Below, one piece after another: positions 5,624 to 42,742 of a stretch of 64,000 bases of DNA. The first letter of the stretch is position 1. Every line of letters begins with the position of its first letter. Position numbers and translations under genes: made by a program. The stretch spans positions 1-64,000 of the forward strand of contig JAGNEZ010000023.1 of NCBI GenBank assembly GCA_018003015.1. Direction: 5' to 3'. The DNA comes from Phycisphaerae bacterium (GTDB taxonomy: Bacteria > Planctomycetota > Phycisphaerae > UBA1845 > PWPN01). The notes under the pieces were generated by a model that was not told where the DNA came from, searched no databases, and saw only the letters and a list, made by a program, of their open reading frames with translations.

Positions 5624-6544
5624 ATGACGCTCATCGTACGATCGCCGGCGGTCGCTGCCATCCTGATGGTGTTTCCCCCTTCGCTGCTCGCCCAGGATTC
5701 GGGCCAAGTCAGCATCCAGATTCTGAGCAGTGGCCAGAGCAGCATGACCGTGGCTCCAGGCCCGGTGGACCTTCAGCTCGATCTCAAGATGAGCACCACT
5801 GTCGGACTTGTTGCCGCGGAGTTCGCCCTCGATTGTTCCTCGCCCGCCCTTTTCGTCTATGCCGAGCCCACGGTCTCCAACGGCTCTCCGTTTACCGAGA
5901 CCGACCTCAACTTCGTCCCTATTAAGCCACCCGCCAACGATGGGACACCGCTCTCCGACCACCCGAGAATCACTTTCTTTCGACTGGAGGCGGGCAGCTA
6001 CGAACCGGCGCTCTTTCCCTCGGTAGTGCTAACTTACCACGTGCGCTCGATCGGGACTCTGCCATCTGGAGCCTCCTACACATTCTCCCTGACCGAGGAT
6101 GATGAACTGCCGCTCTGGATCAGCGATTCAGGCCCAACCGAGCTTCTCAGCGGGAAGATCGCGGTCGGAACGGAGGGCATATTCACCCTTCAAGTCTCCG
6201 CTGGCGACAACGGCGGAACGCCCTCCGGCGAAAGTGAAACAACGCCGGGTGATGGGAGCGATACCCCAGACGACGGTGGAACCACTCCCGGCGACGGTGA
6301 GACCACCCCGGACGATGGAGGAACGACGCCTGACGACGGCTCGATCACCCCGGGCGACGGCGACGCCACGCCGCACGACGAAGGGACCACCCCGGGTGAC
6401 GCGCCCAATCAGCCGTCGGAGGGAAGCCCCGCCACGACGCCGACCGGGACCACGGCATTCTGTGGCGCCGGCGTCGGTCCGGCCTCCCTGTCCGCCGTCC
6501 TGCTCGGCCTGTGGCTGATCTCCCCCCGACCCCGGCGGCGATAG
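5624..6544 (+). CDS. Secreted protein with heptad-repeat stalk and C-terminal anchor
   Basis: This 306-residue protein starts at ATG 5624, with AGAGG about nine bases upstream; an in-frame GTG/ATG at 5594/5597 is possible but poorly spaced. A Sec signal peptide (MTLIVRSPAV...SLLAQ) precedes a domain of about 170 residues with alternating beta-type patterns (VDLQLDLKMSTTVGLVAAEF, VVLTYHVRSIG) reminiscent of cohesin-like folds. Eight acidic heptads of the TTPGDGE/TTPDDGG type follow, then TAFCGAGVGPASLSAVLLGLW and a terminal RPRRR. The Cys-Gly, helix, Arg-cluster ending resembles tripartite surface-sorting tails such as MYXO-CTERM. It is probably a surface-anchored protein; its ligand is unknown. 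Confidence 0.65.
   Translation: MTLIVRSPAVAAILMVFPPSLLAQDSGQVSIQILSSGQSSMTVAPGPVDLQLDLKMSTTVGLVAAEFALDCSSPALFVYAEPTVSNGSPFTETDLNFVPIKPPANDGTPLSDHPRITFFRLEAGSYEPALFPSVVLTYHVRSIGTLPSGASYTFSLTEDDELPLWISDSGPTELLSGKIAVGTEGIFTLQVSAGDNGGTPSGESETTPGDGSDTPDDGGTTPGDGETTPDDGGTTPDDGSITPGDGDATPHDEGTTPGDAPNQPSEGSPATTPTGTTAFCGAGVGPASLSAVLLGLWLISPRPRRR
6236..6403 (+). repeat. Eight 21-bp tandem repeats encoding TTP[GD]DG heptads
   Basis: Within the secreted protein gene, eight consecutive 21-base units encode ETTPGDG, SDTPDDG, GTTPGDG, ETTPDDG, GTTPDDG, SITPGDG, DATPHDE and GTTPGDA. The units have diverged at the DNA level, so copy number is probably stable now, but the region is a candidate for length variation. 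Confidence 0.85.
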
Positions 6545-29390: not shown

Positions 29391-29464
29391 GGCCGTCAAG
29401 ATGGGTAAGTCCCTGTACGTTGGGCTGCCACCGGGTTACTGCTGACGAGTGGAAGGATTCGATC

Positions 29465-30289
29465 ATGACGACGCCGGCCGGTAGCGCGGCCAAGCCAGTC
29501 CATCCCCCCAGCCGATCCCTGACCAGCGTCTTCAGGAACGGGTGGTTCGTTGCCTGCCTGGGGTTGCTGCTGACCTTCGCGGCCACCTTCCAGCTCATGG
29601 CGTACGCCTTCGCCTGGCAGACCCGCAAGCTGCCGGTTCCCCTGCGTAAGCCACTGGATGGCCTCGATCAGACCAAGCTCCACGGCTACAAGTTTCACCA
29701 CAACTACATGATCAAGCCGGAGGTTCTCGAGAAGCTGGGAACGAAAGAGTACATTCAGTGGGTGTTTCAGGATGTCTCCCCGACAGCCTCCAAGGGCCCA
29801 GAGGACTTCGTCAGTCTGTTCGTCACCTACTACACCGGACAACCGGACCAGGTGCCCCACGTGCCCGAGGAGTGCTACAGCGGGGGCGGCTACGAGATCC
29901 AACGAGAGGACATCCTGGAGGTCCCCGTCACTCACCAAGGAAAAACGACCAAGGTCCCGTTCAAGATCCTGACCATGGATGCCCGTTCGGATCTGCGCGA
30001 GAAACGCACGGTCATCTACACCTTCCATGCCAACGGGCAGTTCTGCGCCGACCGGAACGCGGTGCGAACCGTCGTCGCAGACCCTGCCGAGAAATACGCG
30101 TACTTCAGCAAGCTGGAGTTGACCTTCGGAGTCAACGATGCCCTGCCCACTCGGGAGGCGGCCATCGAGTCTGGCAGGCGATTTATCCAGCAGGTTGTCC
30201 CGCTGCTGCTGGATGAGCACTGGCCGGATTGGCAGCAAGTCAAGCAGGCCGAACAAGCTGCGTCGGCGAAGACGCCGGCGAAGAACTGA
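29465..30289 (+). CDS. EpsI-type exosortase-associated protein
   Basis: This 274-residue protein starts at ATG 29465 with AAGGA upstream. One N-terminal membrane helix (WFVACLGLLLTFAATFQLMAYAFAW) is followed by a periplasmic domain with LFVTYYTGQPDQVPHVPEECYSGGGYEI and later VIYTFHANGQFCADRN. The P-E-x-C-Y-x-G-G-G-Y element corresponds to the conserved P-E-x-C-Y-P-G-x-G-W segment of EpsI (DUF3485) proteins, which act with exosortases in EPS assembly. The exosortase itself is not in the window. It is followed 32 bases later by the giant TPR gene, probably co-transcribed. Confidence 0.75.
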   Translation: MTTPAGSAAKPVHPPSRSLTSVFRNGWFVACLGLLLTFAATFQLMAYAFAWQTRKLPVPLRKPLDGLDQTKLHGYKFHHNYMIKPEVLEKLGTKEYIQWVFQDVSPTASKGPEDFVSLFVTYYTGQPDQVPHVPEECYSGGGYEIQREDILEVPVTHQGKTTKVPFKILTMDARSDLREKRTVIYTFHANGQFCADRNAVRTVVADPAEKYAYFSKLELTFGVNDALPTREAAIESGRRFIQQVVPLLLDEHWPDWQQVKQAEQAASAKTPAKN

Positions 30290-30321
30290 CAGGCACACAG
30301 AGAAGGAACCGAGATTCAACC

Positions 30322-33300
30322 ATGGCAAAACGACTCAATAAGAAGCTCGTAGTAGGAATGACCGTCGTCGGCATGTTCCTGACGATCCTGGCCGCGTTCC
30401 TGGCGGTAACGCGATTCTTGCCGAAACAAGATCCCACGCCGGCAGTCGATAACGCCGAGAGGGCGGCGAGGCTCGGAACCCTGGAGGGGTACAAGGAGGC
30501 CGCCAGGCAGTACCATGTGGCGGCCAATCGAGCGAAGGCCCTGGCGGATTCCTCCGGCACTGACGCGACATACGAGGAGAAGAGCAAAAAGTACCGGCTG
30601 CTGGCGGGCGACATGGCCCTCAAAGCCGGCGATCCGAAAACGGCAGTCGAGCAGTGGAACCGGGTGATTCTGGCGGATCCGAAGTACGGACCGGCCTACG
30701 AGAGAAAGCTCGATCTGGTGTTTGAATACCCCGATTTCCGCTTCTTCGGGGGAAAAGACATCGAGGACTTCGCCTCCAACCTCCTGAAAGCCCAAACCGA
30801 GAGCAACAAAGCCCGTCATGCGCTCGGATTCGCCCTGCTGGTGCAAGCCGAAGCCCGACGAGAGAATCTCGCCGCTGGCGAGTACTTCCTCCGCCAGGCC
30901 GTCGAGCGGGAGAAGTCCAACGCGGACTACGTGGACAGCCTCGCCCGGCATTTGCTGCAGCAGAGCCTGTCCGACGAATGGACGAAGCGATACGACGAGA
31001 GCATGGAGAAGAGCCTGGCAGCACTGGCCCAATCGACCGAATCCTGGGCCGCGCAAGTCCCCAGGGACTTCTGGAAACCCCGAACCGGCTCGGACCTCGC
31101 CAAAGAGGCCGACCAGATGTTTGAGGACCTGACCCGCGATCACCCCGTTCCCGCGACACCATCGATTTCGCCAGCCGCAAGCCCAGCCTCCGAAGAAGAA
31201 AAGGACAAGGAGAGACAGAGACTCATCGCCGCCGTCGAGGCGTGGAGGAAACGAGGCATCTACTGCACCACCAAGGCGGGACTCTTGAGTCGGGAATGGG
31301 CCTCGCTGCGCCTGAAGCGGGCCTCGCCGGAGGAACTGACGGAGGCCTTGACCGCCATCAAGGAGACGAACCAGAAGGCCCTCGAGTGTCTTGAGACTGC
31401 CAGGAAGATTGCCGGACAATTGGAGCCCAGCGATCCCGCGAGGATCGATAGCCTGATCGCCCTGGCCAAGTACTACCGGAGCATGTTTCCCAGCCAGCCC
31501 GAAGACCCCAAGGCCATTCAGAGCGAACAGCAGTCGAACAACCAGGTTGCTCGTCAGTTCTACGAGGAGGCTATCAAGAGCGATGTATATGGCTTTGATG
31601 CCTATCGCCAGATCGCGGACCTGTTGCGAACGAACCGCGACCCGGAGGGAGCCATGCGTTATCTGGCCCAGCGTTATGCCCTGGGCATCAAGCGGATCGG
31701 CATGGAGGCGATTCGCAACCGGCAAGCGATGAGCGACCTTCGGGATGATCTTTTTAACTGCCTCTACTATCTACCGGGCAACGCGGGGAAACAGCCCATC
31801 AAGAGCAGCATGGACCTTCTAACCCGCTTTTCGCTGAAAGATGTAGACGGACAAGATGCCAAGACCCCCGACGGCCGTCCGATCATCGTTCCCTCGCTCG
31901 AGGAGCTCCGCAAGGACCAGGCCGCCGATCTGGGCGAGGACGCCCCTTCCGTCCTGGTGATGAAGGCGCTAATCGCGATGATCCAGGGTAATCATGCCCT
32001 CGCTGTCCGCTCCTTGGAGGAAGCCTCAAAGAAGGTCAACCTGGACACCCCGCGCGAGGAGTGGGAAAAGAGACTGGCTCTCAAGATAGCCACACTGCTG
32101 GCGGAAGAGTACCGTGTCAGCAATACCCCTAACCTCGCGATAAACATGCTTCGACAGGCCAGGAAACTGTCTCCTGCCCATACCGGGATACTGGTTACTC
32201 TCGCGGAGCGGATTCTCGCCGAAGGCACCAACTCCGCCGGCCAGATCGATGAGAAGGCCGCTTCAGAGGCTCTGCCCATCGCGGAACAGGTGCTCCTGTA
32301 TGACCCCGACAACCAGCAAGGATACGTGCCTCGCGCCCTCCCGGTCCTTGCCACAATCTACCAATCCCAGAAGAACTGGGATCGACTGAAGGAGATCCAG
32401 GATCTTGCGGCAAAGTACCGGACAGCCGTCGATGCGGACCAGGCCGCCCTCACGGAAAAGCTCCAGAAGGCACTGCTCTTCACCATGCGGGCCGAAAGCA
32501 GCACGCCGCCCGACGCGGAGCTGCAGGCCCAGGCCGAGAAGCTGTTCCTGGAAGTCCTCGAGGCGAGACCATTCGATGACGCGGCCGTCCGGAACCTGGT
32601 TCGAGTCTATTCCCAAAGCCAACAGGCGGAAAAGTTGACTCAGCTCCTCGAAAGGCAGAAAACCCTGGCGAATGAGAAGCTCGCCGCCTTGGCCGCCGCC
32701 ACCCAACCCGCAGAAACTGACCAGAAAAAGGCGTACCAGCAGTACATCACGCAGCTCGACCGGTGGGCGGTGCTCGCCGACCCGCGATTACCCGAGAGCG
32801 ACAAGGACAAGAAGATGGAAGAGATGATCCTGGCCGACCTTGAGGCCAGCGCCAACGACACGGATCGGTTGCGAGCCACGATGGATCTCTATCGCCTCAA
32901 GATGGCTGCCGCACGCCGGGCTGCACAACCGGAGGATGCGGATCGACTGGCTAGCGAAGGCTGGAACCGCCTCCGGCAGGCTCTCGATTTGGCTCCAACG
33001 AACAAGCAACTGGTCGATGAGTTCTTCAACCTCGCCCTGACACGCGAAGACTGGAAGACCGCCGAGGAAATGGTCGGCAAGGCCGTCGAGATAGGCCTGG
33101 ATCCCTGCAAAGGCTGTTTCTTCCGCGGGCGGCTGTACCTCAAACAGGGGATCACCGAGAACAAGCCCGAGCTGTTCCAGAAGGCGGCCAAGGAACTGGA
33201 GAGCGGGCTGAAGGAGTATCCGAGTTTCCCAACCGGCCGCATTGACTACGCGTCGGCTTTGCTGAAACTCAACAAGCTCACCGAAGCCGCACGAGAGTAC

Positions 33301-35730
33301 GAGAAGGCCCTCGAGCTGGACGCTCGGAATTCGGAGGCGGCTCTCCAGCTAGCCCGCTTGGCGAGCCTGCGGAAGGATGACCAAGCGGAAGCGGACAAGA
33401 CTCGGTACCTCGAGCTCTGCAAACGGCTGATTCCCAACCATCCCTGGGTCCGCGAACAACTGCAAGGCCTCGCCGACGCCCAAGACCCTCAAGCCGGCAT
33501 CGTGCGGCGAGAAAGCCTGCGAGCGTCAAACCCCAAGGATCTCCTCAATCTAGTCGCCCTCGCCAAGCTCTACCAGAAGGTGGGAGAGGCGGCCAAGGCA
33601 GACGCCGTCCACCAGGACATGCTCAAGACCGACCCGAAGGACGCGGGGCTCACCGTCGACCCCTGGGAATGGAAGGCTGAGTGCCTCAATGACTACGCGA
33701 TGTTCATCCGCACAAGCAAGCCCGAGGATTCAGCTCGGGTGAAGGCTCTCCTGGAGGAACTGCGAGATCAGGTCCAGAAGCAGCCGGCGCCGATCCAGGC
33801 CAAGGTTCAGATGGTCTACGCCAGCCACCTCGCGGGAATGGCGACGATGTCTTCTCCCCTCCCCGACAAGCCAACGCTTCAGCAGGTCGACGACGCCTAC
33901 GAGAAAGCCGCATCGCTCGTCAACTCCCCGGTGTCCTGCATGAGGCTGTGTCTTCACTACCAGGCCACCGCCCGACAGGGGGCTCAAGACGACCAGTCGG
34001 TGGCGATTCGGCTGGCCAAAGCCGAGGAGTGGGCACGCAAAGCGGTCGAACTCGCGGAAACCCAGAAATCGCCGGAGGGCAGCACCCCGGCACGCCGAAT
34101 TCTCATCGAGTTGCTGCTGACTTCACCGGAGTTGAACGAGGCCGTCGTGCGGAAGGAGATCGAAGCCTACCGGGCTACCCAGGTGGGTGACAGCTGGGAA
34201 CTCCTCGTCGAGAGCAACCTCCTGGTCCGCATTGGCCAGCTCGACCAGGCCCTGGCGACGCTGAAGAAGTACATTGCTCAGAACCCCAAAGAAGCGGCTG
34301 CAGCTTATCTGACCCGCTCGGAGATCTTCTCCATGCGCGGCCAGTGGCTCGAGGCCGCGGATGAGCTTCGCCAGGTCAAGGCCACCAATCCCAAGGGGTA
34401 TGACTACATGCACCGCCTGCGGCTGGCTCGTTGCCTGCTGAACAGCGAACAGTCAGAGCTGGCCGTCGCCGAACTGAACAGCATCCTGGCGGACGATCCG
34501 GGCAATGAGCTGGCCGTCCGCATGCTGATGCGAATCTACAACGAGAAGGAAGCTTGGCCCGCCGCGGAGACAATGCTCCTTTCGCTCCGGGAAAAGGATC
34601 CCCGCAACCATCTCTGGCCCCTGTATCTGTCCGAAATGTACGTGACCCGCGGAAACGGCGAAGCGGCCATGCAGTACGGCACCGACGCCATCCGGCTGAG
34701 CGACTACAACGACGCGGTGGTCGAGGAGGTCCTCCGCGGAGGCGTGAAGGTCAGGCAGAACGACCGCGTCTATCGCATCATTGCCGAGATGCTGCCAGAC
34801 AGAATCAAGAACCGGCCCCAGTTCCTTGCCCTCGCGGGCAGCGCCCTGGCGGACAAGGGCGAGCGAGAGGCCGCGATCAAGCTGTACAACCAGGCCCTCG
34901 ATGCTGCCGGCGACGCGGTCGAGCTGTTCGCCTTCATCGCCCTCGATGCCAGGACCCGGCTCGGCGACGACACCGCCGCCGAGATGGTCCGCCAGCGATT
35001 GACCACGAATCCGCAGCATGCCGCGGCCAGATACGTCCAGTCCCTGGCCAAGCAGCGAGCCGGAGACATGGACGGTTTCATCAAGGACCTGGAGGACATT
35101 CTTCAAAGTCTGCCCAAAGGGGACCCCAATTTCCTGATGAACCGACTGGGCGTGCTGCAGTCTCTGGCCTCCTGCTACTACAGGAGGGAGTTGCTCGACA
35201 AGGCCAAGGAGAAATACGAGGAGCTCATCGAGCTGACCCGAAGCTACAAGTCAGCCCCGGGCCTGGCCAAGTACCACGTGTTCGGACTCAACAACTTGGC
35301 GTATCTGCTCATCGACAAGCAGAAAGATCCCAAGAGTGCTTTCCCTTATTCAGCCGAGGCCGCGAGCATCCAGGCTGACCCGAACGTCGTCGACACGCTG
35401 GCATGGAACTACGTCCTGCTTGGCCAACATGACAAGGCGGTTCATCTGCTCCGCCAGGTCGTCAAGAACGACGAAGGGCGCACGCCGGCGATTCTCTACC
35501 ACCTCGCCGAAGCACTGCATCGCAAGGCACAGCAGCTGCCCGAGGGCGAGCAGAAGGAAAGTACCCTGAAGGACGCCAAGGCGTGCTGCACCGAAGCATA
35601 CACGTTCATCGACAAGAAGAAAGCCGACGTCGACAACGTCCTGGGCGACCTCATGGTGCTCGGGGAGAAACTGGGACTCAAGTTCGAGAAACTGAATCTC
35701 GGCCAGCCGGGCGCCCAGGGGCCCTCCTGA
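30322..35730 (+). CDS. Giant membrane-anchored TPR protein
   Basis: This 1802-residue protein starts at ATG 30322 (MAKRLNKKL) and has one N-terminal membrane helix (LVVGMTVVGMFLTILAAFLAVT). The rest is nearly all helical hairpins with TPR spacing, e.g. DPKYGPAYERKLDLVFEYP, LDLAPTNKQLVDEFFNLAL, EYEKALELDARNSEAALQLARLA, LNSILADDPGNELAVRMLM and AIKLYNQALDAAGDAVELFAF. TPRs are dense in the last 900 residues. It would be a periplasmic scaffold, comparable in role to PrsT/PelB-like TPR proteins of EPS and exosortase loci, which fits its position after EpsI. No enzymatic motif is seen. Confidence 0.82.
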   Translation: MAKRLNKKLVVGMTVVGMFLTILAAFLAVTRFLPKQDPTPAVDNAERAARLGTLEGYKEAARQYHVAANRAKALADSSGTDATYEEKSKKYRLLAGDMALKAGDPKTAVEQWNRVILADPKYGPAYERKLDLVFEYPDFRFFGGKDIEDFASNLLKAQTESNKARHALGFALLVQAEARRENLAAGEYFLRQAVEREKSNADYVDSLARHLLQQSLSDEWTKRYDESMEKSLAALAQSTESWAAQVPRDFWKPRTGSDLAKEADQMFEDLTRDHPVPATPSISPAASPASEEEKDKERQRLIAAVEAWRKRGIYCTTKAGLLSREWASLRLKRASPEELTEALTAIKETNQKALECLETARKIAGQLEPSDPARIDSLIALAKYYRSMFPSQPEDPKAIQSEQQSNNQVARQFYEEAIKSDVYGFDAYRQIADLLRTNRDPEGAMRYLAQRYALGIKRIGMEAIRNRQAMSDLRDDLFNCLYYLPGNAGKQPIKSSMDLLTRFSLKDVDGQDAKTPDGRPIIVPSLEELRKDQAADLGEDAPSVLVMKALIAMIQGNHALAVRSLEEASKKVNLDTPREEWEKRLALKIATLLAEEYRVSNTPNLAINMLRQARKLSPAHTGILVTLAERILAEGTNSAGQIDEKAASEALPIAEQVLLYDPDNQQGYVPRALPVLATIYQSQKNWDRLKEIQDLAAKYRTAVDADQAALTEKLQKALLFTMRAESSTPPDAELQAQAEKLFLEVLEARPFDDAAVRNLVRVYSQSQQAEKLTQLLERQKTLANEKLAALAAATQPAETDQKKAYQQYITQLDRWAVLADPRLPESDKDKKMEEMILADLEASANDTDRLRATMDLYRLKMAAARRAAQPEDADRLASEGWNRLRQALDLAPTNKQLVDEFFNLALTREDWKTAEEMVGKAVEIGLDPCKGCFFRGRLYLKQGITENKPELFQKAAKELESGLKEYPSFPTGRIDYASALLKLNKLTEAAREYEKALELDARNSEAALQLARLASLRKDDQAEADKTRYLELCKRLIPNHPWVREQLQGLADAQDPQAGIVRRESLRASNPKDLLNLVALAKLYQKVGEAAKADAVHQDMLKTDPKDAGLTVDPWEWKAECLNDYAMFIRTSKPEDSARVKALLEELRDQVQKQPAPIQAKVQMVYASHLAGMATMSSPLPDKPTLQQVDDAYEKAASLVNSPVSCMRLCLHYQATARQGAQDDQSVAIRLAKAEEWARKAVELAETQKSPEGSTPARRILIELLLTSPELNEAVVRKEIEAYRATQVGDSWELLVESNLLVRIGQLDQALATLKKYIAQNPKEAAAAYLTRSEIFSMRGQWLEAADELRQVKATNPKGYDYMHRLRLARCLLNSEQSELAVAELNSILADDPGNELAVRMLMRIYNEKEAWPAAETMLLSLREKDPRNHLWPLYLSEMYVTRGNGEAAMQYGTDAIRLSDYNDAVVEEVLRGGVKVRQNDRVYRIIAEMLPDRIKNRPQFLALAGSALADKGEREAAIKLYNQALDAAGDAVELFAFIALDARTRLGDDTAAEMVRQRLTTNPQHAAARYVQSLAKQRAGDMDGFIKDLEDILQSLPKGDPNFLMNRLGVLQSLASCYYRRELLDKAKEKYEELIELTRSYKSAPGLAKYHVFGLNNLAYLLIDKQKDPKSAFPYSAEAASIQADPNVVDTLAWNYVLLGQHDKAVHLLRQVVKNDEGRTPAILYHLAEALHRKAQQLPEGEQKESTLKDAKACCTEAYTFIDKKKADVDNVLGDLMVLGEKLGLKFEKLNLGQPGAQGPS

Positions 35731-36887: not shown

Positions 36888-36977
36888 GCCACTCGCGTGC
36901 CGGCTCGGACGGCGGCGTGGGCCGAGTCAGATTTCGGTTCCAGGTTCGAGCATGTTGAACACGAGGAGTGCGATCAA

Positions 36978-38387
36978 GTGCGTCATCAGCCTGCTGTATC
37001 CATGATTCCGATGGCTTTGGCTTCACTGATTGGCGGATGTCTCCCCACCGGCCTTCCTGATCCGCCTGCCCCCCCGGGCGGACTGGAATCAGACGACTTC
37101 ATGCTCGTCAGCCAGGGAGGCTTCGACTGGCTGGACGACTTCTTCGACAAGAACGACTATGCCTGGGGAATGGAGTCGTTCAAAGGCGACGAACAGAGCA
37201 CAGGGTACATCTACGTGGCAACAGGAAATGCCATGGTGTCGTTGATGTCCCAGGGTATGGGTGCAATGGTGGGAGGCGCGGCCCTGGGCGAGATCACTGC
37301 CCGGCCGCCGGAAATGCGACGATATCGCCCGGATCTCGGCCAGAAGGTATGGGAACGGGTGCTTGACTACCGGAACATCGAGAACGACCCGGACTTCGAG
37401 ACCATCGGGTTCCGACACATGAAGGTCTATCGAGCCCGCAGCAATGGGGCAAACTACCTTTATGCCGCCACCTTCGGCAAGAACGCCACACTCTGGCGAT
37501 CACGCACCGGCGATCCGATGAACTGGGAGTTGACCTGGCAATCGGGTGAGATGGGCTCGGTCCGCATGATGGCTGAGCACAACGGCCTTCTCTACCTGGC
37601 CCTGGCCAACGATACACCGGTCGCCGGCCGGATCGGCAAGATCTGGGCAACCGACGGCCAGCAGTTCTGGTCGGTGATTGAAGACGGCTTCGGTAACCCC
37701 AACAACGTCGGCATCATGAGCCTGATCTCCTACAACGGCTGGCTCTACGCCGGAACGATGAACACCACCGAGGGGTATCAGGTCTGGAAGTTGGAGGGCC
37801 CCGAGGGTAGCACCGGACCGAACCTGGTTGTCGACCACGGCGGCTCGTCTCCATCCAACGAGTCGGCCGTCACTCCGTGCATATTCCAGGACCGGCTCTA
37901 CTGGGGAGCAATGATCTACATGCTCAACATGCTGGATTTCAAGGGAGCCGACATCATACGGATCAACGCCGATGATACTTGGGAAACCGTCGTAGGCACG
38001 AACTCCATCTCCAGTTACGGACCCGGCTTCGGTCACTGGCCGAATACATACGTCTGGTCCATGACCGTCTACGATGGATGGCTCTACGCTGGCACCTACG
38101 ATATGGCCAGTTCACTCACCCACATGATCCCGTCCCTCACCCTTGCGAATCTGCCGGGGCGCCTGACCTCTCGTCCACCCAACCTCCTCGACTTCCTCCT
38201 CCAATCCGGCGCGGACCTGTACAAGACCCAAAATGGGATAACCTGGTATCCGGTCACGCTCAACGGCCTGAACAACGGCGAGAACTACGGCTTTCGCACG
38301 CTGCTGGCGGCCGATGACGGGCTCTACGTCGGAACCGCCAACCCATTCACTGGGCTACAGATCTGGAAGGGGACGGTCCCAGAGTGA
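36978..38387 (+). CDS. Predicted lipoprotein with beta-propeller-like repeats
   Basis: This 469-residue protein starts at GTG 36978, chosen because GAGGAG lies nine bases upstream and the resulting N-terminus (MRHQPAVSMIPMALASLIGGC) is a proper lipoprotein signal with the lipobox IGGC. The body has repeated blade-like units: YIYVATGNAMV, YLYAATFGKNATLWRS, LLYLALANDTP, WLYAGTMNTTEGYQVWKL, WLYAGTYDMASS and GLYVGTANPFTGLQIWKG. These suggest a six- or seven-bladed propeller. No active site is recognised. It converges on the HprK-like gene of the peptide locus but is probably independent of it. Confidence 0.65.
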   Translation: MRHQPAVSMIPMALASLIGGCLPTGLPDPPAPPGGLESDDFMLVSQGGFDWLDDFFDKNDYAWGMESFKGDEQSTGYIYVATGNAMVSLMSQGMGAMVGGAALGEITARPPEMRRYRPDLGQKVWERVLDYRNIENDPDFETIGFRHMKVYRARSNGANYLYAATFGKNATLWRSRTGDPMNWELTWQSGEMGSVRMMAEHNGLLYLALANDTPVAGRIGKIWATDGQQFWSVIEDGFGNPNNVGIMSLISYNGWLYAGTMNTTEGYQVWKLEGPEGSTGPNLVVDHGGSSPSNESAVTPCIFQDRLYWGAMIYMLNMLDFKGADIIRINADDTWETVVGTNSISSYGPGFGHWPNTYVWSMTVYDGWLYAGTYDMASSLTHMIPSLTLANLPGRLTSRPPNLLDFLLQSGADLYKTQNGITWYPVTLNGLNNGENYGFRTLLAADDGLYVGTANPFTGLQIWKGTVPE

Positions 38388-38427: not shown

Positions 38428-39330
38428 TCAGGCGTCGATCAGATGCTCCAGTTCGTCGCAGGTTGCATGGATGGGACCCGAATCGAGAGCGTAGCATCGA
38501 GCACCACGAGCCAGGTCCGACAGGATCGACGCCGCGCGCGCCCCGTGGACATTGCGATTCAGGGCATGGCGGGCAAGCTCAAAAGCGGCTTGAGCCCTCG
38601 AAATGGGATAGAGCCGCGGCCGGGCGTTCTCCGCATATCGGGGAAACACGATCAATCGCACCGCGCAGGCTTTGGCTGCCACCGCTCTGCCGCCGGCGAG
38701 GGGATTCACATAGCCGACCTCACCCTTCAATGCCTTGACGTAGTGCCGCCGCCGCCAAACAGGCAACCCCAGCCGCTCCATCACTGGAAACGAACCATTC
38801 TTGACACACAAGGCTTTCGGAAACGGATGGATCCGCAAATCGTCCGGGGCAATCAGTGCAAATTCATCGCTAAGGTACTGCCAGCCACGGGCCAGCAAGC
38901 CGGCCGCCAGCGTCGTCTTGCCGAAGCCGGACTCGGCCGCCATGATGAGACCGTGGCCACCTCGAGCCAGCGCCGCAGCGTGGATCTGCAGGTACTCCGG
39001 CCGGGTCGCGATGACGCGCCAGTTGATGCCCCACTCGACGTAGGGCAGTACCTCGTTGGTCTGACGCGTGGTCCAGAGTCCGTGGCCGTCGCCGGAAATC
39101 GCGTACTCGCGTCGGGCCAGGAGTGAGCGCCGGCGGGCCTCAACGGTAATGCTCACCTCGCGACGACGGGGCTCGGCGGGCCGCCGGCACGCGGCATCCG
39201 AGTAGATCGATGCGAGATCATCGAGCACGTCGGGCAGATCGCTCCTCACCGTCACGTCAACCACACCGATCCGCAGGTCAACACGATCGCGGGCCACGCG
39301 CGCCGAGATGGCATCCCCGCAAGCGATCAT
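38428..39330 (-). CDS. HprK-like kinase of a peptide-modification locus
   Basis: This 300-residue protein resembles the HPr-kinase-related proteins that occur with PqqD-like and nucleotidyltransferase genes (often called the HPr-rel-A arrangement). The P-loop is AAESGFGKTT (131-140), followed by a Walker-B-like YLSDEFALI and a KALKGEVGYVNPL segment. The N-terminal 110 residues form the usual accessory domain, with WGINWRV and YLQIHAAAL before the P-loop. True HPr has not been seen; the substrate may be a peptide or small molecule. The start overlaps the PqqD stop by ATGA. It is the last gene of the five-gene unit. Confidence 0.8.
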   Translation of the reverse strand: MIACGDAISARVARDRVDLRIGVVDVTVRSDLPDVLDDLASIYSDAACRRPAEPRRREVSITVEARRRSLLARREYAISGDGHGLWTTRQTNEVLPYVEWGINWRVIATRPEYLQIHAAALARGGHGLIMAAESGFGKTTLAAGLLARGWQYLSDEFALIAPDDLRIHPFPKALCVKNGSFPVMERLGLPVWRRRHYVKALKGEVGYVNPLAGGRAVAAKACAVRLIVFPRYAENARPRLYPISRAQAAFELARHALNRNVHGARAASILSDLARGARCYALDSGPIHATCDELEHLIDA

Positions 39331-39641
39331 GCCTTGAGTGCCTCGAACAGACCGGCCTCAGCCAGAAGGACGAGCATCTGCTCCACGTGATCGAGGGCCG
39401 TGTCCGCATCGATCTGGTAGGTCGCGGTCATGCTCTCGGCGATCTGTCGCGTTGAGGTCCGGCCGTCGCACTGTCTCCAGATGGCCAAAGCAGTCTGGTT
39501 CAGACGATGGGTATGCCCGCTGGCGGGATCGGAGAGCAGGGCCTCGCCGTCGAGCTCCTCGACCAGCACGTCCGCTCGCCTGGCAGGAGCAACGACCTCG
39601 GTGGCACACGAAACCCAGGAAGGGGGCTGCATTTCGTACAC
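39327..39641 (-). CDS. PqqD-like peptide chaperone
   Basis: This protein of about 104 residues belongs to the PqqD fold: VEELDGEALLSDPASGHTHRLNQTALAIWRQCDGRTSTRQIAESM, with the conserved LNxTAxxIWxxCDG core. PqqD-like proteins bind leader peptides of ribosomally made, modified peptides. GTG at 39641 is preferred because GGAGG lies seven bases upstream; GTG 39647 would overlap the preceding stop. It sits between the oxidoreductase and kinase genes. The neighbouring 112-residue peptide is the obvious candidate client. Confidence 0.85.
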   Translation of the reverse strand: MYEMQPPSWVSCATEVVAPARRADVLVEELDGEALLSDPASGHTHRLNQTALAIWRQCDGRTSTRQIAESMTATYQIDADTALDHVEQMLVLLAEAGLFEALKA

Positions 39642-39643
39642 GG

Positions 39644-41002
39644 TCACTCCTCCGTCGAATCAAGCGACATGACCACGGACAGATCCGGTGTGGCCGACCG
39701 CAGGACATGCTGCATACCCGACGGACCTACCCATGCTTCCGCCATCGCTTGCCAGAATGTCGGCCCTCCAAAAACCAGATTCACCGGCCGGCCGTTCAGG
39801 AACAGGGTCGGCGTGCCGACCACGCCGGCCCGCTTGCCGGCTTCGATGTCCTCGCTGATCACTTGCCGAACGGCGGGGCTGTCCATGTCCGCCACCAGGC
39901 GATCGGCATCAAGGCCCAGTTGACCGGCAAGGCGGCGATACAGGTCCACGCCAAGCCGATCCACGTTGGCGTGCAGCAGTTCGTGCATCCGCCAGAAGGT
40001 CCCGTCGCCACCCTGAAGACGAGCCGCCTCCGCCGCTTGGGCTGCTTCGCACGCCTTGGCGTGAAACTCGGAGACAACGTTCGGATTGCAGGTTTGGCAC
40101 AACGGATACTGGCGCACGATGACATCCAGACGACCGTCGAACGCCCGGATCGCCTGCTGGATAGACGCCGAACTCACCCAAGCACACTTGGGACACTGGT
40201 AGTCGTTGAAGACGACCAGCTGAGCACGCCCGCCCCGCGCCGGCTGGCGTTGACGCCCAGGGATGTCCACCGGGTCCTTTGCGAAGTGCTCGCGCCGCAG
40301 GAACGCGGGGTCCTCCCGCATGGACTTGACGACCTGCTTGAACGGAAGCACCTTCCGCAGATGGTCATGCATCGCCAGCTGGTCGGACCGATAGACCCAC
40401 AGGCCGCCGAGCAGCACGAGCGACACCGCCACAGCCCCAACCGCCTCACGATGGGTCACCGGCGCCCAGACCGCAGCACCACAGCTCAAACGCCAAATGC
40501 ACAGAACCATGGCCAGGTTCACGATGTGCGTCGCCAGGCACCACACACACCAGGGAGCCTGCCCCACCACCATCAGCCCGACGAGAAACACCGAAGCCAG
40601 ACCACCGGCCCCGGCCGCCGCGAGAGGAATATACCTCCAAGGATAACTCGCCTCCCGTGGACCGCCAACCAGCCCGAACCACACAACCATCGAAACGAAG
40701 TAGGCCAGCCCCAGGAACGCCACCGGCACACGAGCCGGCCGGATCACCAGACCCTGGTATCGCGAAGGGCGAGGAACAGGCACCGCTATCTCCGACCAGC
40801 CGCCTTTGGTCGACTCAGCACACCCGAAGCCGGCCTTCTCGGCCACGTGGCAGACGGTAAAGAAAAAGCTCGTTCGCCCTCCTGAATCCGCCCACACACC
40901 GGCATGCTGCTTCACCAGCTGCCCGCTGATCCAGGCACCAGTCATGCCCAGCGCGAGCACTACCGCAAGCAGCAATCCTGGATAGAGCCGAGTCTTCGAC
41001 AT
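39644..41002 (-). CDS. VKOR-DsbA fusion thiol oxidase
   Basis: This 452-residue protein fuses a vitamin-K-epoxide-reductase domain to a thioredoxin-fold DsbA domain. The VKOR part (1-205) has a loop Cys pair Cys51/Cys61 followed by GWSEIAVPVP and the active-site PWCVWCLATH (Cys152/Cys155) within four to five membrane helices. The DsbA part has FNDYQCPKCAWV (Cys270/Cys273), a thiol-rich insert (RQYPLCQTCN) and the cis-Pro loop VGTPTLFLNG. It should make disulfides in exported proteins using quinone. Start at ATG 41002 (MSKTRLYPG) is inferred from the first membrane helix. It lies 23 bases after the Cys-rich peptide gene. Confidence 0.9.
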   Translation of the reverse strand: MSKTRLYPGLLLAVVLALGMTGAWISGQLVKQHAGVWADSGGRTSFFFTVCHVAEKAGFGCAESTKGGWSEIAVPVPRPSRYQGLVIRPARVPVAFLGLAYFVSMVVWFGLVGGPREASYPWRYIPLAAAGAGGLASVFLVGLMVVGQAPWCVWCLATHIVNLAMVLCIWRLSCGAAVWAPVTHREAVGAVAVSLVLLGGLWVYRSDQLAMHDHLRKVLPFKQVVKSMREDPAFLRREHFAKDPVDIPGRQRQPARGGRAQLVVFNDYQCPKCAWVSSASIQQAIRAFDGRLDVIVRQYPLCQTCNPNVVSEFHAKACEAAQAAEAARLQGGDGTFWRMHELLHANVDRLGVDLYRRLAGQLGLDADRLVADMDSPAVRQVISEDIEAGKRAGVVGTPTLFLNGRPVNLVFGGPTFWQAMAEAWVGPSGMQHVLRSATPDLSVVMSLDSTEE

Positions 41003-41025
41003 ACCCAACACGCGCTCCACCTCGT

Positions 41026-41364
41026 TCAGTAGTTCTCGCACAACATGGTCGTCTCGCTGCACCGCAAGGGATTGTTGTTCATGTCCACGGGGCAGCAGTC
41101 CTTCTGCGTTCCATCCGTCGCACACGGCGAACCCACCGTATGCTGTAGAGCCGAGCCGCAGACGAAACCCGACGCCATCGCTTGCTGGGCGGTGAGCGTC
41201 AGGATCCCCGGGGTGATGTACAGCGTCTTCCTGCCTGCCCCTCCGAGAAAACCCCGGCGGGTCGTCAGGCCTTCCCCGTGCGCCTGAGGCTCCGTCGACG
41301 GCGACTGGATCGCTTCCACGGATGCCTTGGCTTCGCCGTCCGGCGTTGTTTCACATTGGCTCAA
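41026..41364 (-). CDS. Small Cys-rich peptide with Tat-like leader, candidate precursor
   Basis: This 112-residue protein starts at TTG 41364, supported by GAGGAG eight bases upstream. Residues 1-33 are polar. TTRRGFLGG (Arg36-Arg37) matches a twin-arginine motif, a weakly hydrophobic stretch (LYITPGILTLTAQQAMA) ends in an AMA cleavage site at 62-64, and the tail 65-112 holds six Cys (69, 81, 90, 91, 102, 109), enough for three disulfides. The tail has no close family that I recognise. Genes on either side encode a nucleotidyltransferase-SET protein, a VKOR-DsbA oxidase, PqqD and a kinase. It is thus the likely substrate of the set. Whether the leader is exported intact or cleaved by modification enzymes is unknown. 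Confidence 0.7.
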   Translation of the reverse strand: MSQCETTPDGEAKASVEAIQSPSTEPQAHGEGLTTRRGFLGGAGRKTLYITPGILTLTAQQAMASGFVCGSALQHTVGSPCATDGTQKDCCPVDMNNNPLRCSETTMLCENY

Positions 41365-41437
41365 ATCGGCTTCTCCTCAACTTGCCTGCTTCCCATTACC
41401 ACCAGGTCGGTCCGTTGCGCGGACACCGGGCCGCTGA

Positions 41438-42742
41438 TCAGGCCACGCCTGCCTGGACACCTCCCGGCGGCTTCCGGCAGGAACACGCGTCCGGACCGTA
41501 GTCGATGGTAATCTCCTGGCCGGCGACGATCGGCTTCAGAGCAACCAGATCGAAGCCGTCGAGCTTCGCATTTGGTCGACAGGAGTGATTCAGGAACCTC
41601 AGCTTGCCTGTGACCTCGTAGTACCGCCGGCAATCTCCCTGTTTCTCCTGTCGCCCAACGTAGGGCCCCTTCTTCTCCGCCGGCTGCCCATGATAGCGGG
41701 TGATGATCTTCCCGGCAGCGATGTCTCGAACCGCGAAGACACCCGTGCCGTGAATCGCGCTCTTCCCGGTGCGAATTCCCGAAAAGCGATACCAGACCGG
41801 AACAACCCTGCGAAGCATCGGCCACAGCATCCGCAAGCCATGGGCACAGGGAAGCCACAACCGGTGGTGCCGCCCGTACCAGCCCTCCATGTGCGCGGCG
41901 TCGGGAAACACGACCGCACGAAGGTAAGCCAGCAAAAACCGTAACCCCGGGGTACACAGAGCGTCCACCACGACATGGCTCACCGGATGGCACATGTCCC
42001 GCGGAGCCTGCCACAGAACCAACCGGCCGCGCCAACCCACGTGCACACGGTCAAGCTGACGGAGCACCTGCGGAGGACAAAGCGGACCCGATTCCGCCTC
42101 GATGCGGCGGAGGGCACGACGAAGCGGCAAAACGAGATCCCACGCTCGAGCGGTCGCCACGACTCGGTCCCAGTCGATGCTCGATTCAAAGGCCTCCACG
42201 AACCGCCCGACGTCCATCCGCCATTGCGGTCGAGAATCACCATGAACCTCAGCATGAACCGCCAAGTGAATCAACATGTCGCCGGCTTCGGGCACAAGCA
42301 CGGTTGATCGGCCGATGGGAACCGCAACCGCGCGTTCCCAAAAGGCCGCGTCGGGCACGGTGTGCGAATACCGAAGCGGACGGAAGGGCCGGACGTGCAG
42401 GTCGATCTTCACCGGGCAGATCCGGCCATAGCTGTAGGCCATTTCATAGTGAAAACGAGGAAAGAAGTCCTCGCGAACCAGTTCCTCCCCACGAAGACAG
42501 CCGGCCTCGATCAACAACGCCTGAGCCCTCGCAACATCCCGCGGGCGCACCAGCAAATCCAGATCGTCCATCGGCCGCTCGTCCGGCCGACGGTACAACA
42601 GGAGCTGCAGGGCGCCTCCCTTCAGCACGATCAGCGGCACCCCGGCCTCGTTGAACCGGGCGGCAAGCCGCTCCAAAACGTGCATCAATCGGACATTGCG
42701 CAAGGTCGTGACCATGTACCGATAACCAGAATCCTTACTCAT
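41438..42742 (-). CDS. Nucleotidyltransferase-SET domain fusion protein
   Basis: This 434-residue protein joins two enzyme domains. The N-terminal 300 residues are an NTP_transf_5-like nucleotidyltransferase: VPLIVLKGGALQLLLY (36-50) and DERPMDDLDLLVRP with the acidic D-x-D at 60-62, then KIDLHVRP and LVPEAGDMLIHLAVHAEVH. From about 318 a SET methyltransferase domain follows: HGTGVFAVRDIAAGKI, RFLNHSCRPNA (NHSC at 385-388), AGQEITIDYGPDACSC. These match the SAM-binding GxG, NHSCxPN and ExTxDY motifs plus a short post-SET Cys pair. SET enzymes methylate protein lysines. It is the first gene of the peptide locus, 73 bases before the Cys-rich peptide gene. Confidence 0.85.
   Translation of the reverse strand: MSKDSGYRYMVTTLRNVRLMHVLERLAARFNEAGVPLIVLKGGALQLLLYRRPDERPMDDLDLLVRPRDVARAQALLIEAGCLRGEELVREDFFPRFHYEMAYSYGRICPVKIDLHVRPFRPLRYSHTVPDAAFWERAVAVPIGRSTVLVPEAGDMLIHLAVHAEVHGDSRPQWRMDVGRFVEAFESSIDWDRVVATARAWDLVLPLRRALRRIEAESGPLCPPQVLRQLDRVHVGWRGRLVLWQAPRDMCHPVSHVVVDALCTPGLRFLLAYLRAVVFPDAAHMEGWYGRHHRLWLPCAHGLRMLWPMLRRVVPVWYRFSGIRTGKSAIHGTGVFAVRDIAAGKIITRYHGQPAEKKGPYVGRQEKQGDCRRYYEVTGKLRFLNHSCRPNAKLDGFDLVALKPIVAGQEITIDYGPDACSCRKPPGGVQAGVA

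Follow-up and report, generated by a model that had tools for sequence, protein, structure and literature searches.

What do five tightly packed minus-strand genes of a Phycisphaerae bacterium make together? The genes lie at positions 38428-42742 of the window, meaning the whole stretch of 64,000 nucleotides that was analysed (positions 1 to 64,000 of contig JAGNEZ010000023.1, assembly GCA_018003015.1). They encode, in this order, a nucleotidyltransferase (NT) fused to a SET domain, a Cys-rich peptide, a VKOR-DsbA fusion, a PqqD-family protein and an HprK-like kinase. Gaps of 73 bases (NT-SET/peptide) and 23 bases (peptide/VKOR-DsbA) are followed by two 4-base overlaps. A preliminary description read the five as one system that matures the peptide, and the open reading frames (ORFs), domains and coordinates agree with the arrangement that it gave. 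The answer reached here is that the genes probably form a peptide-maturation cassette of the ribosomally synthesized and post-translationally modified peptide (RiPP) type. Its composition resembles that of the clusters for linear polyphosphorylated peptides (LPPs), with a cystine-knot core, export of the twin-arginine translocation (Tat) type and an oxidase of its own.

One question is whether the peptide is a gene at all. Pfam and NCBIfam recognise every member of the cassette except this one (41026..41364, minus strand), a 112-residue leader plus six-Cys core whose TTG start codon follows a GAGGAG ribosome-binding site. The congener G009 encodes this ORF too, with start codon and GAGGAG unchanged, and the ratio of nonsynonymous to synonymous substitution rates between the two is about 0.20 for the whole gene and about 0.08 for the mature part. 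Because the congener shares these features and the ratio shows constraint, the peptide is a real gene, as the preliminary description had supposed. It contains seven Cys, six of them within the predicted mature part, and no further precursor copies were found in the window's genome. Nor is the five-gene arrangement due to chance, because it is kept in two other genomes. In G009 the NT-SET, peptide, VKOR-DsbA and PqqD genes lie at the end of contig C67 and the kinase gene at the start of contig C10, and G005 has all five genes in an order identical to that of the window. The cassette is real and conserved.

How far does it extend beyond these genomes? Relatives were collected by searching genomes at family, order, class and phylum level for the kinase, the NT and the peptide, by a scan of GTDB contigs and by inspection of neighbourhoods. 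This yielded about 75 related loci, nearly all in Phycisphaerae; the GTDB scan gave 68 loci, nearly all from metagenome-assembled genomes (MAGs) of that class. Had the homologous loci lacked the peptide or scattered its partners, the idea of a common system would have suffered. Instead, nearly all of them combine PqqD, the kinase and the NT with a short ORF whose leader is shared across loci. Lineages differ in gene order, the NT coming either first or last, and the cassette has therefore been maintained through rearrangement. Judged by this comparison, the leader peptide has PqqD, kinase and NT as its constant companions, and it is the core that varies. The reading of the locus as a coherent maturation system with the peptide as its precursor is largely borne out by this conservation of leader and partners.

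A few of the relatives stand apart. L206, in a record titled Alphaproteobacteria, has the same cassette as G033, which is grouped with the window's order, and its label is probably wrong. In L280 (G365, another class) the Cys repeat after the related leader TSRRKFLKRIVYTAPVIMTFVASRAHAQS is a different one, ASCQPENCHPVDCIPGDCNPGPCVPASCRPAN, and in L241 (a Planctomycetaceae MAG) a related leader precedes NGSGGNCGSGGHRRRRHRNHHNGQGRGDGRNDD. L148 and L149 have runs of N near the cassette; the precursor of the former is readable only as CCPGLTCLGTVGSKTCQ and that of the latter is unreadable.

The leader carries three motifs. A Tat-like twin-arginine motif, TTRRGFL (41245..41265, minus strand, as are all features below), has its RR in 69/69 precursors. 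The YxxPx[VIL] motif, YITPGIL (41200..41220), is a putative adaptor-binding site and has counterparts of the form [YFW]xxP in 63/69. Finally there is a predicted AxA cleavage site, AMA (41173..41181), which ends 16 residues from the Tyr; AxA occurs in 60/69. Counted from the Tyr in 70 precursors, Pro stands at position 4 and [VIL] at position 6 in all 70, Ala at position 16 in 61, and a Ser lies within positions 17-21 in 69. The window's genome carries TatC, and with the RR motif and AxA all of these Tat-substrate features are present. One precursor shows an unusual arrangement. In L198:4663-5337 (= L083:11660-12334; MAG G241) a twelve-Cys precursor carries a PqqD domain, in frame, at its N-terminus. 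This fusion adjoins a second PqqD, and it could be natural or an assembly error.

The three constant partners have recognisable precedents. The PqqD-family protein (39327..39647, 9e-16), a candidate RiPP recognition element (RRE), scores 35.1 bits against TIGR04353, marginally over the cut-off of 35. A YxxP motif is required for RRE binding in LPP and lasso peptide systems (PMC13381572), and PadeB1 binds its own leader (PMC5067487). By comparison, PqqD is likely the leader-binding adaptor, in line with the earlier proposal that it holds the leader. The kinase (38428..39330, TIGR04352 9e-57) has H117, the P-loop K138 and D155-E156 in invariant columns of a 10-sequence alignment (A1). The strict H-P-loop-DE pattern is found in 69/78 loci, the others having P-loop or spacing variants, e.g., PQSGKS. 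HprK-like kinases phosphorylate S3 of the LppA core (PMC13381572) and the C-terminal Ser of paeninodin (PMC9266682); PadeK and the pair PsmK/PsmN are the precedents in the latter paper. The NT-SET fusion (41438..42742, 434 residues; Pfam NTP_transf_5 8e-42, SET 9e-12) has its nucleotidyltransferase-like domain at about residues 1-315, followed by the SET domain, and in most loci the NT orthologue adjoins the precursor. PsmN, which is annotated as a nucleotidyltransferase, is needed to add hexoses onto phospho-Ser (PMC9266682).

Which known system does this resemble? The preliminary description suggested the HPr-rel-A type (NCBIfam TIGR04352/TIGR04353). This holds insofar as PqqD, kinase and NT occur together. 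However, the kinase scores 192.2 bits, under the cut-off of 200, and the loci over the cut-off that were examined (L276-L278) show no such peptide, so a strict HPr-rel-A assignment was rejected. The SynChlorMet cassette shares a pair of HprK-related (ScmC) and PqqD-related (ScmD) proteins, but the five genes include no radical SAM gene, and the scores lie far under the cut-offs (30 of 125 bits and 41 of 100 bits). The lasso peptides paeninodin and pseudomycoidin (PMC9266682) resemble it in that they combine an HprK-like kinase acting on a precursor Ser with a nucleotidyltransferase-like partner (PsmN, which adds hexoses), and have a YxxP/WxxP leader bound by a PqqD-like B1. In contrast, the present cluster has no macrolactam cyclase or B2 peptidase, and its core is either linear or predicted to be disulfide-knotted. 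A lasso peptide was rejected since no B2 was found among the scanned proteins and the genome's Asn_synthase genes are on other contigs. The open-access library searched held nothing relevant on HPr-rel-A or on knottins together with Planctomycetes.

The closest match is the LPP system, described from the lpp cluster of Paenibacillus alginolyticus and reported to be restricted to Bacillota (PMC13381572). There, a discrete RRE, an HprK-like kinase and an NTP-transferase likewise lie beside a precursor with a variable C-terminal core, and the surroundings are often rich in glycosyltransferases. The LPP leader consensus, YxxPxVLxHQxIxFETxxS, is cut after T16 and has phospho-Ser at 19 (PMC13381572). 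The present leaders share the YxxPx[V/I/L] motif, the 16 residues from Tyr to the cut (here predicted) and a Ser near the start of the core. Unlike this locus, the LPP cluster has a SipW-like peptidase and an MsbA-like exporter. What is found here instead is RR/Tat-like and AxA signals, a core of the inhibitor cystine knot (ICK) pattern, VKOR-DsbA and either SET or GT2/GT4 proteins, all in Phycisphaerae. The earlier statement that no described pathway with this exact composition is known must therefore be narrowed: the LPP system shares the core of RRE, kinase and NT, whereas its peptidase and exporter were not found here.

The variable part of the precursor comes in two forms. Among 69 cores, 36 have no Cys and 33 do. 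The Cys-free tails are mostly short (e.g., ASPSS, ASGVSATS, GSGGSLITPGP), and 26/36 end in Ser or Thr. The Cys cores mostly have six Cys. Four are doubled to twelve (L083, L146, L152 and L156), apparently with two knottin repeats per precursor. In the window the predicted mature peptide (41029..41172, 48 residues) has its core Cys at precursor residues 69, 81, 90, 91, 102 and 109. The six Cys are invariant in 24/24 aligned cores, in ICK order and spacing. In Pfam, some cores taken singly hit ICK toxin families (best 7e-5), although the window core by itself had no such hit. A profile of the cores matched mostly ICK-type peptides in the PDB (best 7.5e-5), and for an AlphaFold model of the window core (pLDDT 76) the best structural alignments are with ICK chains (Z 3.5, 34 residues, 2.1 A). 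An inhibitor cystine knot is the best reading of the window core, as a predicted fold. The six-Cys core of the preliminary description is thus confirmed as to its Cys and refined as to its probable shape. Animal and plant knottins share the C-C-CC-C-C order, a Gly before Cys 2 in nearly all, and the predicted fold. They differ in that the present peptides are bacterial and leader-guided, with an apparent kinase/NT step and a putative dedicated oxidase, and their fold is assigned from sequence pattern and prediction. No paper on bacterial knottins of this kind was found in the open-access library searched, and there may be some outside it. One clue to how the two forms are related is that many Cys cores begin with SNHSC, a recurrence of the short-tail motif SNHSS (L106). 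This suggests that what is modified in both forms may be the Ser segment, to which the knot was added.

Does the oxidase belong to the knot? The window's VKOR-DsbA (39644..41002; VKOR 2e-10, DSBA 6e-13) starts with ATG, a GTG at 41011 being also possible, and has the VKOR loop Cys pair, the membrane CVWC and the DsbA CPKC. Across the survey, VKOR-DsbA is present in 26/33 Cys-core loci vs. 0/36 others (Fisher 6e-13, uncorrected). The 26 include L076, whose contig holds only part of DsbA; L163 and L148, where the core end alone is visible (L148 being partly masked); and L077, which has no kinase on its contig and is absent from the kinase tree. L147, the nearest locus to the window by kinase (60 percent identity), has at once no Cys core, no VKOR-DsbA and no sound SET motif, and retains leader, PqqD, kinase and NT. 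The earlier claim that VKOR-DsbA goes with a disulfide-rich core is supported by these loci, through a link that rests on few independent evolutionary events. In L075 (oriented 6065-6145) and L150, a second, degenerate precursor-like ORF with only two Cys (IAGNNHSYHPF..) precedes VKOR-DsbA.

The role of the SET domain is probably different from the one first supposed. In the window it has NHSCRPN, EITIDY and a post-SET CSC, the motif residues of an active SET domain (NHxC..N, Tyr, post-SET CxC). The NHxC His/Cys and the post-SET CxC are intact in 13/13 SET-bearing loci with a Cys core, the window and its congener included, and lost in 5/5 SET-bearing loci without one (two lineages). This pattern could be taken to mean that the defining modification is methylation, by SET, of a lysine in the exported knottin. 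However, in six of the SET-intact loci the mature peptide has no Lys, which makes methylation of the mature peptide unlikely, and SET as a methylase of mature-core Lys was rejected. Furthermore, there is no SET in the Cys loci of clade B, and the SET domains of L009 and L077 are shortened or altered outside the motif. We consider methylation as the defining step very improbable. What stands of the proposal that SET modifies the peptide is that its Cys/His motif tracks the Cys core. The best reading is that SET accompanies the Cys core as an accessory; it more likely acts on the leader or a partner protein, or serves as a binding module.

Other accessories occur elsewhere. A GT2 glycosyltransferase adjoins the cassette in 17 loci (L075, L076, L083, L085, L086, L087, L089, L100, L151, L154, L155, L156, L157, L161, L162, L164 and L165), in most with a GT4 too. 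All but L151, in which no peptide was seen, have a Cys core or VKOR, and none of the no-Cys loci has GT2. GH130 lies nearby in L075, L083, L085, L151 and L157. No GT2 or GT4 was found in the flanks examined at the window locus. The window itself has a DUF3485 (EpsI-like) gene and then an 1833-residue repeat protein of TPR-type appearance (29420-35730), which suggests an exosortase/exopolysaccharide locus. A 496-residue ORF convergent with the cassette (36897-38387) has no Pfam or NCBIfam match.

How might the parts work together? The precursor would be translated with a leader carrying RRxFL, YxxPx[VIL] and AxA. PqqD would bind the YxxP part and present the precursor, as motif and neighbourhood suggest. 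The kinase would then phosphorylate the Ser just past AxA, given the LPP and paeninodin precedents and the conservation of this Ser, and onto this phosphate the NT would attach another group, possibly a sugar by analogy with PsmN. The modified peptide would be exported by the Tat route and cut at AxA. Finally, the membrane-bound VKOR-DsbA, whose dedication is suggested by gene co-occurrence, would oxidise the six Cys to the predicted knot.

Several observations do not fit this scheme well. Neither a SipW-like peptidase nor an MsbA-like exporter is among the five genes and scanned window neighbours, and none was recognised among the recurring neighbour families. Because these two LPP core genes were not found, the cassette is called LPP-like and not LPP. 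In the window, a Ser is at core position 1 and another after the first Cys, not at position 3. Fold Z-scores of 3.5 are low, which a match of 34 residues would lead one to expect. In a model of the L198/L083 fusion the leader has pLDDT <50, and the model gives no clear docking of PqqD to the leader. On the kinase tree there are only about 3 changes of core type and 6 of VKOR. The independent pairs on well-supported branches number 2-3 and agree in direction or show no difference, too few for significance. VKOR-DsbA is missing from seven of the Cys-core loci. These may be served by VKOR in trans because VKOR-DsbA homologues are nearly universal in the order (112/114 genomes). Several VKOR-containing loci have lost the DsbA CxxC. 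The VKOR Cys are kept in all of these (L086, L087, L089, L100, L108, L154, L157, L162 and L085, the last with no precursor visible).

Could something simpler account for the locus? Perhaps the peptide is an ordinary small Cys-rich protein exported by Tat with its own oxidase, and PqqD, kinase and NT form a unit of their own, of older origin and with another target. RRxFL and AxA do resemble a plain Tat signal peptide, and folding could be explained by VKOR-DsbA alone, homologues of which are general in the order. However, leader, PqqD, kinase and NT remain together after Cys core, VKOR-DsbA and SET are gone, the YxxPx[VIL] motif and its spacing to the cut match LPP, and mature products of 3-8 residues are implausible as ordinary secreted proteins. 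The fusion of PqqD to the precursor in one locus also speaks against two separate units. This explanation is unlikely. A little less likely still is that kinase and NT build a small product on a short Ser tail, from which it is then released, the knot having come later to protect or aim the product. The 36 short-tail loci, often of few residues and mostly with a terminal Ser or Thr, would suit this idea, as would the retention of NT and kinase with both core types. However, the Ser of Cys-type cores lies inside the peptide, ahead of the knot, and therefore a C-terminal product could not be released in the same way. Furthermore, none of the recurring neighbour families was recognised as encoding a peptidase.

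The maturation cassette proposed above remains our preferred interpretation of the window. More tentatively, and at slightly less than even confidence, it can be generalised. Phycisphaerae would possess a leader-guided pathway of RRE, HprK-like kinase and nucleotidyltransferase with a swappable core, yielding phosphorylated, perhaps glycosylated, Tat-exported ICK peptides that a dedicated VKOR-DsbA folds, with SET or GT2/GT4 as lineage-specific additions. If this is true, the LPP type of RiPP would extend from Bacillota to Planctomycetota, and one leader-guided kinase/nucleotidyltransferase route would serve a five-residue tail and a cystine knot alike. Genes for SET, VKOR-DsbA and glycosyltransferases would be linked through a single substrate, and the action of the kinase and NT on a peptide would become directly testable. 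The knot shape is known from spider, cone-snail and plant peptides, while relatives of the present locus have a tiny tail instead and no folding enzyme. The cassette would provide knottin scaffolds from bacteria, together with an oxidase dedicated to them, by way of a RiPP pathway.

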